Source of the DNA: Acidobacteriota bacterium
Lineage (GTDB): Bacteria; Acidobacteriota; Terriglobia; 20CM-2-55-15
Assembly: GCA_022821145.1 (NCBI GenBank)
Contig: JAJEEE010000064.1
Coordinates: 62,001-126,000, forward strand
Direction of reading: 5' to 3'
DNA length: 64,000 nt
The position numbers were made by a program, and so were the translations under genes. Positions within the stretch are counted from its first letter, which is position 1; every line of letters starts with the position of its first letter. Positions 33,492-42,735 of the stretch are shown piece by piece. Below the pieces are notes generated by a model. That model had not been told where the DNA came from. It made no database searches and worked only from the letters and a program-made list of their open reading frames with translations.

Positions 33492-36400
33492 TTACCCTCC
33501 TGCCGGCGGCCCGTCCGTGTCGCCTTCCTCGACCGCGGTGGGCGGCCTCCCGTATCGGAGATAGATCGCCGGTATGACCACCATGTTCAGAAACGTGGAT
33601 GTCAGCATACCGCCCATGATCACGGCGGCCATGGGTTGCTGGATCTCCTTGCCCGGCGTCCCGACCCCGAGCGCCATGGGGATCAGGCCGACACCGGTCA
33701 CCAGCGCCGTCATCAGGATGGGGCTCAGGCGCTCCATCGACCCCTGGACGATCGCGTCCCGGAAATCGGTTCCCTGACGCATCAGGTGTCCGTAGTGGGT
33801 GACCAGCATGACGCCATTGCGCGTGGCGATTCCGAACAGCGTGATGAACCCGATGAGCGACGCCACCGACAGCGTCCCGCCGGACAGGAACACGACCACC
33901 ACGCCGCCAATCAGCGCGAGCGGCAGGTTCACCATCACGAGCAGTGACGTTCGCGCCGACCCCGTCGCCATGTACAACAGAAGAAATATCCCACCGATGG
34001 CGGCCGCGCTCAGACCGACGATGCGCGTCATCGCGGCCTCCTGCGCCTCGAACTGCCCGCCGAATTCGACGAAGTAGCCCTCGGGCAATGCGACCTGCCG
34101 CTCGATGGCCGCCCGCACGTCGGCGATGACGCCCCCCAGGTCCCGGCCCGACACGTTCGATTGGACGATGATGCGGCGTTGTCCGTTCTCCCGGTTGATC
34201 GTGTTCGGACCCCGGTCGACCCGCACCTCGGCCACCTGCGCGATCGGGATCTTGGTTCCTCCGGGCGAGGTGATCAGCGTATTGCCGATGGAATCCGCCG
34301 AGCCGCGGGCGGAGTCTTCCAGGCGCACGATGATGTCGTAGCTGCGCTGCCGTTCCAGGACCTGTCCGACGACGACGCCGTTGAAGGCGTTCTCGACGGC
34401 GCGGGTCAAGTCCGCCGCGGCGATGCCGAGAGCGGCGGCGTTGGCGCGGTCGACGCGCACCTGCACCTGAGGCATGCCCACCTGCGGCTCGAGGAGCAGG
34501 TCCACGACGCCCGGGACACCTTCGATCGCCGCGCGAATCTCTTCCCCCTTGTTCCGAAGCGTCGGAAGATCCGGACCGAACAGCTTGATCGCGATCTGGG
34601 CCTGCGTGCCCGACAACAGATGGTCGATGCGATGCGCGATCGGTTGACCGACCTCGACGCCGGCGCCCGGTATCCGCGCCAGTATTTCGCGAGCCTCGTC
34701 CATGATCTCGAACTGCGTCCGCGCGCCGCCGGCCGTGACGACTTCCAGTTCGCTCGCGTTGACGCCGGAGGCGTGTTCATCCCGTTCGGCGCGACCGGTT
34801 CGCCGGGTGGTGGACACGACCTCGGGAATCTCGCGCAGGGCTTCCTCGACACGAGCCCCGATCCGGTTGGACTCTCGCATCGACGTGCCGGGAGGCAGCG
34901 TCACGTTGATGTTCATGGCGGCCTCGTTGAACGGCGGCAGGAACTCGCGGCCCATCAGCGGCGCCAGCGACAGCGAGACGACCAGCAGCAGCAGCGAGAC
35001 GACGATGACCTCGTGAGGATGCCGGAGCGTCGCCGCGAGCACGCGGGCGTAGACCGCCTTCAAGAAACGGACCAGAACCGCGTCGCCGGGCCGTTCGATG
35101 AGCCTGGACCGGGCCAGGAACCAATAGCACAGCACCGGCGTGAGCGTGAGCGCCACCACCAGCGAGGCCGCGATCGAAACGATGTAGGCGAACGCCAGCG
35201 GCGCGAACATGCGGCCTTCGATCCCGGCCAGCGAGAACAGCGGCAGGAACACCAGGATGATGATCAGGGTGGCGTAGAAGATCGAGTTCCGGATCTCGCT
35301 CGACGCCCGGTAGACCACCGTCAGCACGGGTTCGGGGCGCGGCGACGCCGCGTTCTGCTTCAGGCGCCGGAACACGTTCTCGACGTCGACGATGGCGTCG
35401 TCCACCAACTCGCCGACGGCGATGGCCAGTCCTCCCAGCGTCATCGTGTTGATGCCGATGCCGAAATAGCTCATCGTGACGACCGCGGCCAGCAGCGACA
35501 GCGGGATCGCCGTCAGGCTGATCAACGCGGTCCGGACGTTCCAGAGAAAGAGGAACAGGACCACGGCGACCATCAATCCGCCTTCGATCAGGGCCTGGCG
35601 GACGTTGCCGACGGCAAGCTCGATGAAATCCGCCTGCTGGAACGCCTCGGTATCGATGACCACGTCGCCGGGAAGCGACCGGCCCAGGTCCGCGAGAGTC
35701 GCTTCGACGTCGGCCGTCAACTCCAGCGTGTTCGCGTCGGGCTGCTTCTGGATCGTGAGAACGGTCGCCGGTTGCGCGTTGAAACCACCGTCGCCGCGCT
35801 TGATCGCCGCGCCGAGCCGCACTTCCGCCACGTTGCCGACCAGCACGGGGCGTCCGTCGCGCACGGTGACGACGGATTCGGCCAGGTCCTCCAGATCGGA
35901 AACGCGCCCGCGCCCCCGGATCAGGAACTCCTCGTTCGGCCGTTCCATGATGCCGCCGGCGCCCACGGCATTGGCCGCTCGAACGGCCGCGGTCACTTCT
36001 TCGAGCGATAGACCGTAGTCGACGAGCCGGGCCGGGTCGACCAGCACCTGGTACTGCTTGAGATCCCCGCCGATCACCGTCACCTGCGACACCCCCGGCA
36101 GCGCCAGCAGCCGAGGCCGGACGACCCAGTCTGCGATCGAACGGACATCCATGGCGGTGCTGGCGCCGGTGGAGCGCATCGAGATCAACATGATCTCGCC
36201 CATCGTCGAGGAAATCGGCCCCAGGACGGGCGAGTCCACACCCTCGGGCAGGCGCACCTGCTGCAGCTTCTCCGTTACGGTCTGGCGGGCGCGATAGATG
36301 TCCGTGTCGAGCTCGAACTCGGCGAAGACCAGCGACAGGCCGGCCACCGAGTTCGATCGCACGCGGAACACGCCCGTGGCGCCGTTCAGCGCGGCTTCCA

Positions 36401-36605
36401 GCGGCACGCTGATCAGGGCCTCGACCTCTTCCGGCGCCAGACCCGGCGCTCCGGTCAAGACCGTGACCGTGGGCGCGGTCAGGTCGGGAAACACGTCGAT
36501 CGGCGCACGCGACGTGACGATGCCGCCGTAGACGAGCAGGACGGCGGCTCCCGTTATGACGGTCAACCGGTTGCGCAGGGACCAGTGAATGATGCGGTCG
36601 AGCAT
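33492..36605 (-). CDS. heavy-metal efflux RND permease (CusA/CzcA family)
   Basis: A 1037-residue inner-membrane proton-driven pump of normal length, with twelve helices and two large periplasmic loops. The N-terminus IIHWSLRNRLTVITG, PIDVFPDLTAPTVTVLT, the TM4 proton-relay segment GELVDDAIVDVENVFRRL and the C-terminal half (TLFGIATRNGVMLVTHYGHL) are characteristic of HME-RND pumps. The TM4 motif lacks the DFG-x-IVDGA form of Czc/Ncc zinc-cobalt pumps and is nearer to copper/silver-type or uncharacterised HME classes, so the metal is uncertain. It is the last gene of the operon running from 40051. The adaptor stop lies 21 bp upstream and the Shine-Dalgarno is weak. Confidence 0.93.
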   Translation of the reverse strand: MLDRIIHWSLRNRLTVITGAAVLLVYGGIVTSRAPIDVFPDLTAPTVTVLTGAPGLAPEEVEALISVPLEAALNGATGVFRVRSNSVAGLSLVFAEFELDTDIYRARQTVTEKLQQVRLPEGVDSPVLGPISSTMGEIMLISMRSTGASTAMDVRSIADWVVRPRLLALPGVSQVTVIGGDLKQYQVLVDPARLVDYGLSLEEVTAAVRAANAVGAGGIMERPNEEFLIRGRGRVSDLEDLAESVVTVRDGRPVLVGNVAEVRLGAAIKRGDGGFNAQPATVLTIQKQPDANTLELTADVEATLADLGRSLPGDVVIDTEAFQQADFIELAVGNVRQALIEGGLMVAVVLFLFLWNVRTALISLTAIPLSLLAAVVTMSYFGIGINTMTLGGLAIAVGELVDDAIVDVENVFRRLKQNAASPRPEPVLTVVYRASSEIRNSIFYATLIIILVFLPLFSLAGIEGRMFAPLAFAYIVSIAASLVVALTLTPVLCYWFLARSRLIERPGDAVLVRFLKAVYARVLAATLRHPHEVIVVSLLLLVVSLSLAPLMGREFLPPFNEAAMNINVTLPPGTSMRESNRIGARVEEALREIPEVVSTTRRTGRAERDEHASGVNASELEVVTAGGARTQFEIMDEAREILARIPGAGVEVGQPIAHRIDHLLSGTQAQIAIKLFGPDLPTLRNKGEEIRAAIEGVPGVVDLLLEPQVGMPQVQVRVDRANAAALGIAAADLTRAVENAFNGVVVGQVLERQRSYDIIVRLEDSARGSADSIGNTLITSPGGTKIPIAQVAEVRVDRGPNTINRENGQRRIIVQSNVSGRDLGGVIADVRAAIERQVALPEGYFVEFGGQFEAQEAAMTRIVGLSAAAIGGIFLLLYMATGSARTSLLVMVNLPLALIGGVVVVFLSGGTLSVASLIGFITLFGIATRNGVMLVTHYGHLMRQGTDFRDAIVQGSMERLSPILMTALVTGVGLIPMALGVGTPGKEIQQPMAAVIMGGMLTSTFLNMVVIPAIYLRYGRPPTAVEEGDTDGPPAGG

Positions 36606-36626
36606 GAGTGTCCGGGACCGCCGCGT

Positions 36627-37871
36627 CTAGTGGATGTGCGCGCCCGGATCGGACGGCTGCAATTCCTGGAGCTTCAGTTGATAGGCTCCCTGCGTCACGA
36701 CGCGTTCACCCGCCTCCAGCCCCGACAGGACGGCGACCATGTCGCCGTACTCGTCGCCGAGAATCACGTCCCGGCGCTGGAACTCCTCTCCCGTCAACAG
36801 GGCGTACACGATGTCGCTCCCCTCGTTGTCCAGGACGGCCTCCCTCGGAATCAGCAGCGCATCGATCTCTTCGTTCGCGTCGAGACGCAGGTTGGCCTGC
36901 ATCCCGATTCGAAGCGCGCGGTCGGTATTGGACAACTCGAAGACGAACATGGCCGTGCGCGTCTCCTCGTCGATGACGGCGCCGCCGTCCACGACCGCGC
37001 CCGTGGCGAATTCCCGGCCCGGGAACGTCGGCGTCGTGAACCGCGCCCGCGGGTTTTCGCGCAACCGGCCGAGATCCCGCTCGAAGATCGGCGCTTCGAT
37101 CCACACCGTCTCCATGTTGACGATCTCGACGATCGCCTCGCCTGCCTGAACCTGCTCGCCGAACCGCTTGGTCACGCCGACAACCGTGCCGGTGATCGGC
37201 GCCCGAACTTCGTGGGTCGCCGGCGCCGAGGGAGCGGCCAGTGCCTCCAGGCGCGCCTCCACGGCCGCCAGACCGGCCTCGGCGACGGCGAGAGCCGTAC
37301 GGGCCTGCTCGAGCTGACGCTGGGAGTACGCCCCCGCTTCGAACAGGCGTTCGGCGCGCCCCGCCTCGGAGCGGGACAGTTCCACCTGCGCCGTCGCTTC
37401 CATCCGCGCCTCGGCCAGGCCCCGCCGCTCCGATTCGACGCGCGCTCGTTCGACGGCGATCTGCGCCGATTCGGCGGCCGTGGGTGTCTGGGTCAGGACG
37501 GCGATCATCTCCCCGCTCCGGACTGTCTGGCCCAGGCTCGGCAGCCCCGCGCCCCCGATGACGCCGCCGACGGCCGGAGCGACGAACGCATGATTCGGCA
37601 GTGCCGGGACGACATAACCGGTCGCCGTGATTTGCGGCGCCAGCCGCGATTCGGTCACCTGCGCCAGCTTCATGCGGATGAGCCACTGCTGCTCCATCAG
37701 GAACGACACGGTCCCCGTTGTCTCGCTTTCCACGGTTTCCGGCGATTCTTCGACGTCGACGCCGGGCCGGCGGGGCCAGGCGACGACGACGGCCGCGACG
37801 ATCACGGCCAGGGTTATCAGCAGGGTCAGGCTCCGCGCCGAACCCTTCGACGGTGTGTGAACGGTGTCCAT
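36627..37871 (-). CDS. RND efflux periplasmic adaptor (membrane fusion protein)
   Basis: A 414-residue adaptor. Start ATG 37871 has GGAG in GGAGTGATGCC upstream; it follows the TolC stop by four bases. An N-terminal anchor helix (SLTLLITLAVIVAAVVVAW) leads to the barrel-sandwich hybrid halves (VGGVIGGAGLPSLGQTVRSG and VRAPITGTVVGVTKRFGEQV) around an alpha-hairpin coiled coil rich in Ala, Glu and Arg (about residues 130-215). A beta-barrel (METVWIEAPIFERDLGRLRE) and a membrane-proximal domain follow. It ends in GAHIH, a possible metal-binding tail. It joins the RND pump to the TolC channel. It lacks the long N-terminal metal-chaperone domain of CusB, which may be supplied by the separate lipoprotein at 39132. 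Confidence 0.92.
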   Translation of the reverse strand: MDTVHTPSKGSARSLTLLITLAVIVAAVVVAWPRRPGVDVEESPETVESETTGTVSFLMEQQWLIRMKLAQVTESRLAPQITATGYVVPALPNHAFVAPAVGGVIGGAGLPSLGQTVRSGEMIAVLTQTPTAAESAQIAVERARVESERRGLAEARMEATAQVELSRSEAGRAERLFEAGAYSQRQLEQARTALAVAEAGLAAVEARLEALAAPSAPATHEVRAPITGTVVGVTKRFGEQVQAGEAIVEIVNMETVWIEAPIFERDLGRLRENPRARFTTPTFPGREFATGAVVDGGAVIDEETRTAMFVFELSNTDRALRIGMQANLRLDANEEIDALLIPREAVLDNEGSDIVYALLTGEEFQRRDVILGDEYGDMVAVLSGLEAGERVVTQGAYQLKLQELQPSDPGAHIH

Positions 37872-37875
37872 GGCA

Positions 37876-39132
37876 TCACTCCAAATCCGTTCCCGACGCC
37901 AGTTCCAGGTCGACAACGCTCATGCGGTAATCGAACAGCGCCTGGAGAAACTGCTCCTCGACCCACGCCCGCGTCCGCTGCGCCTCGAGCAGCGGCAGCA
38001 ATTCGGTCGCGCCTTCGCGGTAGGCCACGGACGCGATCGTGTAGGATCGCCCGGCCCCGTCGAGCAGTTGGTCCTGAAACGTTCCGAGCTGGTCGCGCGA
38101 AGCCTCCCAGGCCCGGTAGGCGGACTCCACCTCGGCCATGGCGCGATTCCGCACCGCCCGCAACCGGGAACGCGACGCCTGCTCGACGGCCACCGCGCGG
38201 GCAACGCCCGCCTGGTTTCGGTCCCGAAACGGCAGCGGGATCGATACGCCGAACGACACGGTGTCGAAGGGGCCGAGGCGCTTGTATCCGAACGAAGAGC
38301 GAATGTCGGGCACTGCCTCGGCCCGTTCCAGAAGCAGCCGGTCCGCCGCCTGGGCCGCCTCGAGCGCCGCGGTGCGAACGTCGGGGCGTACCTCGAGCGC
38401 CGACCGCGTCAGCGCGTCCAGATCGTGACGGACAGGTTCGAACCGGAACTCGCCGACAACCCGGCGCCCGCGGTACCCGCCGTCACCGAGGTGTTGGACG
38501 AGCCGGATGACCGCCTGGTCGCGAACGCGCTCGGCCTGCCGCAGCGCGCGATCGAACTGAACGCGCTCCAACCCCACCTTCAGGAGATCCGCCTCGGCGA
38601 TCGCGCCCTCGCTGAAACGCGCCTGGTTGTAGCGAACCAGCTCGTCGAACGCATCGCGGTTTCCCTCGGCGATCCGGACCTGCCCGTTCGCCAGGACCGC
38701 CCGGTAGAACAACCGTTCGACCTCGGCCACGCCGCGGTGCAGCGTATCGGCCAGCCGCGCCTCGGCGATGGCGACGCCCGCATCGGCCACGGCCGTTCGC
38801 AACGCGCGTTGGCCGCCCAGCTCGAACGTTTCCGTGTAGGAGACGGCCAACTCGTACAGGTTGCCGAACGGGGCGTCCCCGGCGAACTTGAAGTTCTCGG
38901 CGGTGACCTCCAATTCCGGATTGGGCCGCAGCCCGGCGGCGATCCGATCCGCGCGGACGCGGTCGACCTCGAACCGGGCCGCCTCGATCTCGAGGCTGCG
39001 TTCGAGATAGATGTCGACGGCGCGTTCGATGGTCAGCTCCAGGTCTCCGGATTGAGCGATCCCGCCGGAGGATGCCGCCAGAACAAGCGAAACGACAAGC
39101 AGCAGACGCGCGCACGTTGTTTCCATTCCCAT
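37876..39132 (-). CDS. TolC-family outer membrane efflux protein
   Basis: A 418-residue protein with a signal peptide ending GGIAQ. Two repeated coiled-coil units are visible (LTIERAVDIYLERSLEIEAARFE in the first half and VRPDVRTAALEAAQAADRLL in the second), with GLRPNPELEVTAENF and the CzcC-like FGVSIPLPFRDRNQAGVARA. It forms the outer-membrane exit duct of the tripartite pump. The ATG at 39132 shares TGATG with the lipoprotein stop and has GAGGTG upstream, so it is translationally coupled; GTG 39135 is an alternative. Confidence 0.92.
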   Translation of the reverse strand: MGMETTCARLLLVVSLVLAASSGGIAQSGDLELTIERAVDIYLERSLEIEAARFEVDRVRADRIAAGLRPNPELEVTAENFKFAGDAPFGNLYELAVSYTETFELGGQRALRTAVADAGVAIAEARLADTLHRGVAEVERLFYRAVLANGQVRIAEGNRDAFDELVRYNQARFSEGAIAEADLLKVGLERVQFDRALRQAERVRDQAVIRLVQHLGDGGYRGRRVVGEFRFEPVRHDLDALTRSALEVRPDVRTAALEAAQAADRLLLERAEAVPDIRSSFGYKRLGPFDTVSFGVSIPLPFRDRNQAGVARAVAVEQASRSRLRAVRNRAMAEVESAYRAWEASRDQLGTFQDQLLDGAGRSYTIASVAYREGATELLPLLEAQRTRAWVEEQFLQALFDYRMSVVDLELASGTDLE

Positions 39133-39569
39133 CACCGCACCTCGAACCCGTCGAGCGCCATCGTCTCGCTCAAACGGGAATTTTCGATTTGGAACTCGAT
39201 CGCATAGCGCCCCGGGTCTGGAATCGCCAGCGCCGCCACGTAGATGCCGCCCACGCGGCCGGCCGCGGCCCGCGCGCGGAGGATCTCGCGTCCCAGGGAC
39301 GAGCGGACGGTCAGGTCGACGCGGGCCTCGATGACGGGAGAGCCGTCACCCAGATCCGTCAGGTGAATCAGGAACTCGCTGGATTCGCCCGCCCGCAGCG
39401 GGTCGTACTCGAAGAAGTTCTCGACCCGCTCGGTAAACTCGGTCCGTGAAAGCGCCTCGGCGGTTTCCGCCAACGATTCGTCGGGAGCGTCGGGCGGCGC
39501 CGAGGCGCACGCCGCGATCAGGACGGGCACGGCCAGGAACGACCTCGCGCGAACAGCGCGTTCCAACAT
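39132..39569 (-). CDS. small lipoprotein with Ig-like domain of metal-efflux adaptors
   Basis: A 145-residue protein. Lipobox IAAC gives Cys21. The mature part FTERVENFFEYDPLRAGESSEFLIHLTDLGDG, followed by [20 protein letters not shown], looks like the beta-sandwich domain found at the N-terminus of some longer HlyD/CusB-type adaptors in Bacteroidetes. Here it stands alone. It may bind metal or dock to the adaptor. GAGG lies five bases before the ATG. It overlaps the TolC start in TGATG. The domain assignment is from recalled pattern similarity and is tentative; the reality of the gene is well supported by operon position and leader. Confidence 0.75.
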   Translation of the reverse strand: MLERAVRARSFLAVPVLIAACASAPPDAPDESLAETAEALSRTEFTERVENFFEYDPLRAGESSEFLIHLTDLGDGSPVIEARVDLTVRSSLGREILRARAAAGRVGGIYVAALAIPDPGRYAIEFQIENSRLSETMALDGFEVR

Positions 39570-39646: not shown

Positions 39647-40051
39647 TCAATCGAAAGGCGGGACCTGCAAGGGAGGAGCGCGGGAAGAAACGGCGTCGAT
39701 GGGCGGATCGTGCGTGCGGTCGAAGCGAACGGGGCCCGAAGCCCCGCCGGCCTCGGGTGACGGCGCTCCGACCCATTCACGCTCCGCGCCCGCCACGGCG
39801 GCGAGCGCCCGGCCTTCGGACGACACGAACAGGTCCAGACCGCGTCCGTCATGTCGCGGCGCATGGAACTCGGGTTCCTCGGATGGGCGATGGGAAGCCG
39901 CCGACGGAAAGTGACTGTGCACGACGACGCTCGACGACGGGCCATGCGCCGTATCCGAAACGCCGTGCACGTGGACGAACGGGCCTCCGGCCAGCGCCGC
40001 CGACACGGCGGCGAGCGTCAGTCCACCGACGATGCCGCGCGCGGGGTTCAC
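39647..40051 (-). CDS. His-rich exported small protein, first gene of RND operon
   Basis: A 134-residue protein with a hydrophobic N-terminal signal or anchor (GIVGGLTLAAVSAALAGG) directly followed by FVHVHG, TAHG, VHSHF and FHAPRH. It contains about nine His, most within residues 25-65, and no Cys. Such a cluster suggests periplasmic metal binding, fitting its place at the head of a heavy-metal efflux operon. GTG 40051 is chosen because a TTGACA-N17-CATAAT promoter ends seven bases before it, which implies a leaderless message; there is no ATG in the frame. No family was recognised. The C-terminal third is Pro/Ala/Ser-rich. A 77-bp gap separates it from the lipoprotein gene. Confidence 0.6.
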   Translation of the reverse strand: MNPARGIVGGLTLAAVSAALAGGPFVHVHGVSDTAHGPSSSVVVHSHFPSAASHRPSEEPEFHAPRHDGRGLDLFVSSEGRALAAVAGAEREWVGAPSPEAGGASGPVRFDRTHDPPIDAVSSRAPPLQVPPFD

Positions 40052-40058
40052 GATGCGG

Positions 40059-40087
40059 ATTATGTTCGAGGCCCGAACACCTGTCAA
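40059..40087 (-). promoter_or_regulatory. sigma-70 promoter of metal-efflux operon
   Basis: TTGACA (40082-40087) is spaced 17 bp from CATAAT (40059-40064) on the minus strand. The predicted transcript start coincides with GTG 40051. The upstream 40088-40270 region is intergenic and holds no further gene. No MerR-type 19-bp spacer is seen. Confidence 0.7.
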
Positions 40088-40306: not shown

Positions 40307-41428
40307 ATGTCCATGACACCTGGGTTCGTTCCGTCCCTGGCCCTGATCGCCGCCCTGGGCGCGCCGGCCGCCGCGCGGCCCCAGGTCGAGCGCATCGACC
40401 TGTCCGAACGCGGTCCGAGCATCGGGGAACGCGTTCCGGATTTCAACCTGAACGACCAGAACGGCGATCGGTGGACACGGGATTCGATACTGGGCGCGAA
40501 CGGGGCGATGCTGGTCTTCGTCCGGTCCGCCGACTGGTGACCGTACTGCAAGACGCAGCTCGTGGAGCTGCAGCGGATGGCGGACGATCTCGAGCGGCGC
40601 GGCCTGGGGCTCGCCGCGATCAGCTACGACGGCCCGGAGGTGCTCAGAGGGTTTGCCGAACAGTACGGCGTTACCTATCCGATGCTGGCGGACCCCGGCT
40701 CCGAGGTCATCGAGCGGTTCGGCCTGCGAAATCCGGTGCCGGAATGGGCGTTCGGCGACAACGTCGGCGATCCCGAGGTTCAGGAAGCCGTGCGGACGTA
40801 CGTCTCGGCCTTCGGTCCGAACGAACGCATGATCGGGATGGCCTTCCCCGGAACACTGGTCCTGGACGCGAACGGCGTCGTCGTGGAGCGTCACTTCGAG
40901 GACGTGTACTCCGAACGCAACACGATATCCAGCGTCCTGCTGCGCGGGGGCGACGACTCGGATCCCGTTCAGGCCGTGGAGGTGTCGACGCTCCAACTCG
41001 AGTTGACGACGTATGCGAGCGACGCGGAGTTGGCGCCCGGCAACCGGTTCGCATTGGTGCTGGACATCGTCCCGAACGCGGGAATGCACATTTACGCGCC
41101 GGGAGCGTCCGACGTGTACACGGCCATCCACCTTGAGGTCGAGGACCGGCCGTATCTGCGCACCCTTCCGATGGAGTTTCCGGAATCGACGGAATACTAC
41201 TTCGAGCCGTTCGACGACACGCAGCCGGTCTACGAGGAGCCGTTCCGCCTGGTTCAGGAAGCGTACCTGGACGTCGGCCCGGACGGGCGCGACAGCGTCA
41301 CGATCAACGGCGTCCTCCACTACCAGGCCTGCGACGAGAACGTCTGTTACCTGCCGTCGACGATTCCGCTGACCTGGACGGTGGGGGTGACGCCCCTGGT
41401 TGTCGCGCCCGTGACGCGCATCCCTTGA
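40307..41428 (+). CDS. exported selenocysteine-containing redoxin fused to DsbD-alpha-like domain
   Basis: Read with the in-frame TGA at 40538-40540 as selenocysteine, this is one 373-residue protein. A signal peptide (about 1-24) leads to an AhpC/TSA-like redoxin domain (about 28-190): ERVPDFNLNDQNGDRW, MLVFVRSADW, then Sec78-Pro-Tyr-Cys81 and KTQLVELQRMADDL. Homologues usually carry CPxC at this site, so Sec replaces the nucleophilic Cys. The C-terminal domain (about 205-365) ends with LHYQACDENVCYLPSTIPL, with Cys342 and Cys347 matching the DsbD N-terminal (alpha) domain. It probably performs thiol-disulphide or peroxide reduction in the periplasm, with electrons passed between the two domains. 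Translation as two genes is unlikely because the second half lacks a ribosome-binding site and the frame is intact across the TGA. A SECIS hairpin follows the TGA. Confidence 0.85.
40555..40571 (+). promoter_or_regulatory. bacterial SECIS hairpin
   Basis: GCAGCTC, loop GTG, GAGCTGC forms a perfect seven-base-pair stem with a three-base loop. The loop starts 21 bases after the last base of the UGA codon (40540) and begins with G. These match the known bacterial SECIS rules: loop about 16-37 nt downstream and a G among its first two bases. It would bind SelB-GTP-Sec-tRNA. Confidence 0.8.
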
Positions 41429-42279: not shown

Positions 42280-42735
42280 TCAGCCGGCAAACCGTTCGAT
42301 GTCGCCCGGCTTTCGCAACATCTTGTCGACTTCGCCAATGTGCTGGACCTCGAGCGCGATGTGCTGCCGTGCGTACTCCTCCAGCATCACGTCCTCGCCC
42401 TGGACCAGTTGAAGCAGCCGCTCGTAGTGCTCCAGGGTCGCCCGTTCATGGCCCAGCGACTCACGGAGGATGTCGCCGACGTCGTGCTGGTGCGTCTCCA
42501 GCAACGGCCCGATCCCCAACGACGGGTGCGCGCCGAGTTGGGTGACCATCTCGCCGGCCGCGCGGGCGTGCGCGATCGACTCGTTCGCCTGCCCTTCGAG
42601 CCAACCGACGATGGGGATGCGGTTGTATCCGTAGACCATGAACGAATAGTGCGTGTAGTGGACGGCGCCGGCCAGCTCCATCTCCAGGATCTGGTTCAGC
42701 GTGTCGATGACCTGCGACTTGAGTTCTGCGTTCAT
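42280..42735 (-). CDS. bacterioferritin-like ferritin-fold protein
   Basis: A 151-residue four-helix protein. Metal-ligand pattern: EMELAGAVHYTHYSFMV (helix A Glu), EGQANESIAHARAAGEM (helix B Glu-x2-His), LGHERATLEHYERLL and LEEYARQHIALEVQHIGEVD (helices C and D). This is the diiron ferroxidase arrangement of bacterioferritins and related DPS-like ferritins. It stores iron or detoxifies iron and peroxide. A haem-ligand Met is not evident at the usual place. It starts four bases after the exonuclease stop. A TAAGAT box overlaps that stop and ends six bases before the ATG, so it may have its own leaderless transcript. Confidence 0.88.
   Translation of the reverse strand: MNAELKSQVIDTLNQILEMELAGAVHYTHYSFMVYGYNRIPIVGWLEGQANESIAHARAAGEMVTQLGAHPSLGIGPLLETHQHDVGDILRESLGHERATLEHYERLLQLVQGEDVMLEEYARQHIALEVQHIGEVDKMLRKPGDIERFAG

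Follow-up and report, generated by a model that had tools for sequence, protein, structure and literature searches.

The frame at positions 40307–41428 (+) of the window, by which we mean the whole 64-kb stretch of DNA analyzed here, is almost certainly an intact selenoprotein gene, in which SelB and an RNA hairpin would direct the insertion of selenocysteine at residue 78. The product is probably an envelope oxidoreductase, composed of a redoxin (AhpC/TSA) domain and a fused DsbD_N-like domain that probably re-reduces the redoxin site. The first-pass annotation had proposed that two apparent reading frames are a single frame split only by a TGA at 40538–40540, and that automatic annotation would report two truncated genes. 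Translation with TGA readthrough bears out the first point, giving 373 residues including Sec78, with codon 78 as the sole internal TGA and a second TGA (41426–41428) as terminator; ORF calling bears out the second, yielding the two pieces 40271/40307–40540 and 40562–41428. The internal TGA falls at the first position of a UxxC motif (RSADW-U-PYC), three residues before the putative resolving cysteine, Cys81 (40547–40549 (+)). In G+C-rich DNA, an in-frame TGA alone is weak evidence, as 134 TGAs in the window have 60 or more open codons to either side; a search among them for other UGA-interrupted genes found no further recognizable redox motif. What makes this TGA significant is that both halves of the frame form one conserved protein, that SADW-type homologues carry only Cys or TGA at the site, and that a hairpin follows.

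The domain matches place the TGA inside the first of the two domains. Pfam AhpC-TSA (PF00578) matches residues 39–194 (40421–40888 (+)) with 89.6 bits (cut-off 26; E = 1.9e-25), crossing the TGA, and Pfam Redoxin (PF08534) scores 52.5 bits (cut-off 26.6). The AlphaFold2 model (mean pLDDT 93.5, pTM 0.87) agrees with this thioredoxin-fold assignment, and Foldseek matches the redoxin half to AhpE, Bcp, and ResA. Downstream, residues 242–352 (41030–41362 (+)) match DsbD_N (PF11412), an immunoglobulin-type domain, with 29.7 bits (cut-off 25; E = 7e-7). The flanking sequence is thus conserved in frame on both sides of the TGA, as had been claimed; the C-terminal domain itself is not in the first-pass annotation. 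AhpC-TSA was found in all 60 homologues scanned and DsbD_N in 59. Invariant in the 60-member alignment are residue 78 (Sec or Cys), Cys81, Cys342, Cys347, His261, and Tyr263. By analogy to nDsbD, Cys342 and Cys347 (QACDENVCY; 41330–41347 (+)) probably serve the DsbD_N-like domain as its redox pair. At the N terminus, a hydrophobic stretch ending in AAA (MSMTPGFVPSLALIAALGAPAAAR; 40307–40378 (+)), modeled by AlphaFold2 with low confidence, is a probable signal peptide region, and from this signal-like segment the protein is probably exported.

The genome encodes the machinery that such a gene would require. The first-pass annotation had suggested looking elsewhere in the genome for selA, selB, selC, and selD, and in the 4.18-Mb assembly (99% complete, a draft of 89 contigs) all four are present, each over its curated cut-off: selA at 545 bits, selB at 380 bits, selD at 360 bits, and a tRNA-Sec with anticodon UCA at 75.1 bits. 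In this genome (G000), selD lies at C85:100588–101502, and a weaker selD-like match (76.8 bits, below cut-off) is seen at C61:155011–155667. Unusual tRNAs that read UGA as cysteine have been described in some bacteria, and the homologues carry cysteine at this very site, so that UGA might be read here as Cys or Trp rather than as Sec, either under a changed genetic code or by a tRNA-Cys with a UCA anticodon. We consider this very unlikely. The canonical tRNA-Sec is the sole UCA tRNA, no second one appearing among the 44 positions that the general tRNA model listed, all of which were inspected, and tRNA-Cys and tRNA-Trp have the anticodons GCA and CCA, respectively, which argues against both reassignments. 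Moreover, TGA terminates this gene and many of its homologues, and selA, selB, and selD are present. Across the sampled class, selA accompanies the UGA form, being found in 73 of 78 UGA-bearing genomes versus 3 of 11 Cys-only genomes (Fisher p = 2.5e-6); where only a Cys form occurs, selA tends to be missing. The five UGA-bearing genomes with no selA match are G061, G288, G296, and G347, which are 71–81% complete, and G392, which is 94% complete.

Relatives of the gene carry either TGA or a cysteine codon at position 78. Of 399 genomes searched in the class, 98 contain the family, and about 78, the window genome included, have among the listed matches one that spans residue 78 with exactly one TGA. 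In a set of 53 related loci drawn from species genomes, TGA at the same codon is seen in one, from a congener (L009, 76% identity), and the remaining SADW-type homologues have TGC or TGT. The fetched loci with TGA at the SADW-U position comprise 67 Sec loci, 62 of them distinct over the region, and all 46 distinct SADW-type homologues lacking TGA encode Cys at codon 78. The proposal that the TGA sits where homologous redoxins have the first Cys of CPxC therefore holds, and inspection of close relatives for other sense codons or further stops found only TGA or Cys and no additional in-frame stops. Relative to the congener, dN/dS by Nei–Gojobori counts is ∼0.47 over 45 codons upstream of the TGA and ∼0.30 over 149 codons downstream, so both halves are under purifying selection.

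These comparisons bear on two further explanations, each of which we regard as extremely improbable. In the first, the TGA would be a recent nonsense mutation in a pseudogene or a miscalled base, a concern that the draft state of the window genome and the origin of its close relatives, including the nearest named ones, all of which are MAGs, might raise. But the same TGA recurs in the independently assembled congener and in dozens of genomes from several families, which refutes this explanation, and the purifying selection downstream of the TGA and the conserved hairpin stand against it as well. In the second, the locus would hold two separate functional genes, exactly what ORF finders give: one for an N-terminal peptide of 77 residues and one whose translation restarts at GTG 40562. 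But the split would run through the AhpC-TSA active site, a restart at 40562 would omit both active-site residues, and the Cys homologues are single continuous frames.

On a maximum-likelihood tree of 120 members, 12 Sec/Cys changes are needed, 11 of them forced by well-supported branches, and the closest pairs sometimes differ in state, as do L011 (Cys) and L082 (Sec), which are joined with support of 100/99. One genome, G360, contains both a Sec copy and a Cys copy of the protein (L094, L150) and so offers a natural comparison of the two forms. A record labeled Bifidobacterium breve (L015, CALQBJ020000168.1) pairs with the Acidobacteriota MAG L010 at 100/100 inside an Acidobacteriota clade; it is probably a mislabeled or contaminated bin.

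The first-pass annotation had also claimed that a SECIS hairpin follows the TGA, and this claim is sustained by covariation across the family, not by single-sequence folding. The hairpin occupies 40555–40571 (+), with a stem pairing 40555–40560 to 40566–40571 (nucleotides 18–23 with 29–34, counting the U of UGA as 1), an additional C40561–G40565 pair in the window gene, and an apical GUG loop at 40562–40564; nearly all Sec genes have the loop S-GU-N-S, and in all of them the frame 3′ of the UGA is ungapped. Covariation was counted first on 20 sequences hand-picked for diversity and then on the full set of 62 distinct Sec genes. In the latter, 97.6% of cells are paired, versus 43% or fewer when the partner is shifted by 1–3 bases, compensatory changes on both sides occur at three pairs, and the covariation score was reached by none of 500 shuffles. 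The signal is strongest between synonymous codons, in the coupled choice of Gln and Leu codons in the Sec genes: CAG occurs with CTG in 38 and CAA with TTG in 21, the G–U combination CAG–TTG occurs in 2, and CAA–CTG never occurs (Fisher p = 2e-14). The 46 Cys homologues have no such coupling, and none keeps the whole stem. Against synonymous-codon randomization, Sec genes form 6.4 of 7 pairs versus 4.7 expected (p = 8e-12), whereas Cys genes form 4.07 versus 3.93 (p = 0.46, not significant); these SECIS statistics treat related sequences as independent, but the stem signal is unlikely to reflect one inherited change because it spans many lineages on the tree.

Other properties of the hairpin can be set beside those of known elements. 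Its apical loop begins 20 nucleotides after the UGA, within the 16–37-nucleotide range of bacterial SECIS elements (PMC10778597), and it has the loop guanosine found in such elements (PMC1088965). The family hairpin motif matches once in the window, where 0.01 matches are expected. Folding of single sequences from the window and the congener gave z scores of −1.54, 0.43, and 0.16 (in the window, −1.5 for a 53-nucleotide segment and +0.4 for a 63-nucleotide segment), and a scan of the UGA region against Rfam at a lax E-value matched no SECIS model. Taken with the sel genes and the TGA/Cys relatives, the covariation supports the original suggestion that the UGA is decoded as selenocysteine, which is almost certainly the case.

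The immediate surroundings offer less guidance to function. The neighbors are kept in the congener only, and no functional partner emerged from the neighborhood. The selenoprotein gene adjoins a divergent set of efflux-like genes of RND, membrane-fusion, and outer-membrane types (33492–39569 (−)), named by eye from their translations, and a gene identified by Pfam as ferritin-like lies nearby (42280–42735 (−)); this arrangement, too, is kept only in the congener. Between them, 39647–40087 (−) is predicted to encode a small protein in which one segment is rich in His (HVHGVSDTAHGPSSSVVVHSH); the protein has no Pfam match and 47% identity in the congener.

How does the protein relate to known selenoproteins? 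Descriptions of Prx-like UxxC selenoproteins go back to 2005 (PMC1088965; PMC1794560), and the current selenoprotein inventory lists a "redoxin family protein" that also has UxxC (PMC13188914; PMC9312934). Compared by their descriptions, the Prx-like thiol:disulfide oxidoreductases and Prx-like UxxC selenoproteins (PF00578; PMC1088965, PMC1794560, PMC9312934, PMC13188914) share with the window protein the AhpC-TSA fold, Sec as the first residue of UxxC, and common Cys homologues; the window protein adds the C-terminal DsbD_N-like domain with its two invariant cysteines. The redoxin family protein/Prx-like 3 group (PF08534; Refs. 61 and 62 of PMC13188914; PMC2398784) likewise combines a redoxin fold with UxxC; published members of this group are HEU0032618.1 and MBA3499694.1 (PMC13188914; PMC9312934). 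Its Prx-like 3 examples come from marine metagenomes, and a 2008 ocean survey describes, in the accessible part of its text, their fusion to a domain with conserved cysteines that is left unnamed there and may or may not be the DsbD_N-like one (PMC2398784). The domain architecture may thus have been seen before, or it may not. The best NCBIfam match, to SelL-related redox proteins (NF040769), reaches 45.8 bits in the window protein against a curated cut-off of 120, and it recurs as a weak match over the redoxin domain in all 60 homologues. SelL itself has the motif UxxU, in contrast to the UxxC of the window protein. The models for ResA-like WAxxUGC and TUGYCR selenoproteins (NF041054 and NF053656) give 26.2 of 300 and 13 of 100 bits, respectively, and among NCBIfam models, we found none dedicated to the two-domain subfamily and none scoring above cut-off on the window protein. 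A literature search found no paper on an Acidobacteria redoxin selenoprotein. Because the literature on UxxC redoxin/Prx-like selenoproteins dates back to 2005–2008, the protein adds a well-supported member to a known group but no new mechanism; the insertion of Sec here would be the textbook one.

In that mechanism, SelB carrying Sec-tRNA(Sec) would bind the hairpin, which starts 14 nucleotides past the UGA, and Sec would be inserted at residue 78 in place of termination. The product is probably a thiol/selenol oxidoreductase of the envelope, its redoxin (AhpC/TSA) fold holding the U78-x-x-C81 active site. A thioredoxin-like UxxC site on such a fold favors a thiol peroxidase or disulfide reductase, and candidate substrates would be a peroxide, or a disulfide or selenenyl-sulfide in envelope proteins. 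The DsbD_N-like domain, with its two invariant cysteines, makes an internal electron relay plausible. In Escherichia coli, nDsbD passes electrons to thioredoxin-fold partners via C103/C109 (PMC7347389). The window domain resembles it in being a DsbD_N (PF11412) with a redox Cys pair, but has C-x4-C in place of C-x5-C and shares one chain with the thioredoxin-fold domain presumed to be its partner. This analogy, together with the one DsbD_TM/CcdA-type protein in the window genome, leads us to infer a path in which electrons drawn from that type of membrane transporter would pass to C342/C347, then to U78–C81, and finally to substrate, with C342/C347 probably re-reducing the Se–S bond of the redoxin domain. 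The relay role is plausible from domain identity and conserved cysteines.

A wider possibility, to which we give somewhat less than even credence, is that these proteins constitute an Acidobacteriota-wide subfamily of envelope selenoenzymes with their own reductase, in which a Sec redoxin is recharged in-chain by a DsbD_N-type domain and Sec and Cys are swapped repeatedly along with the presence of the Sec machinery. Several consequences follow from the family as described here. First, standard gene calling cuts such genes at the active site, so that annotation would show only truncated pieces of a redox protein that is common among uncultured Acidobacteriota. Second, with at least 11 Sec/Cys swaps on the tree, the family is a clean natural series of such exchanges in one protein. 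Third, because its SECIS element lies in coding sequence, synonymous codon covariation is directly measurable. Finally, the family suggests a testable, self-contained redoxin/DsbD_N relay.
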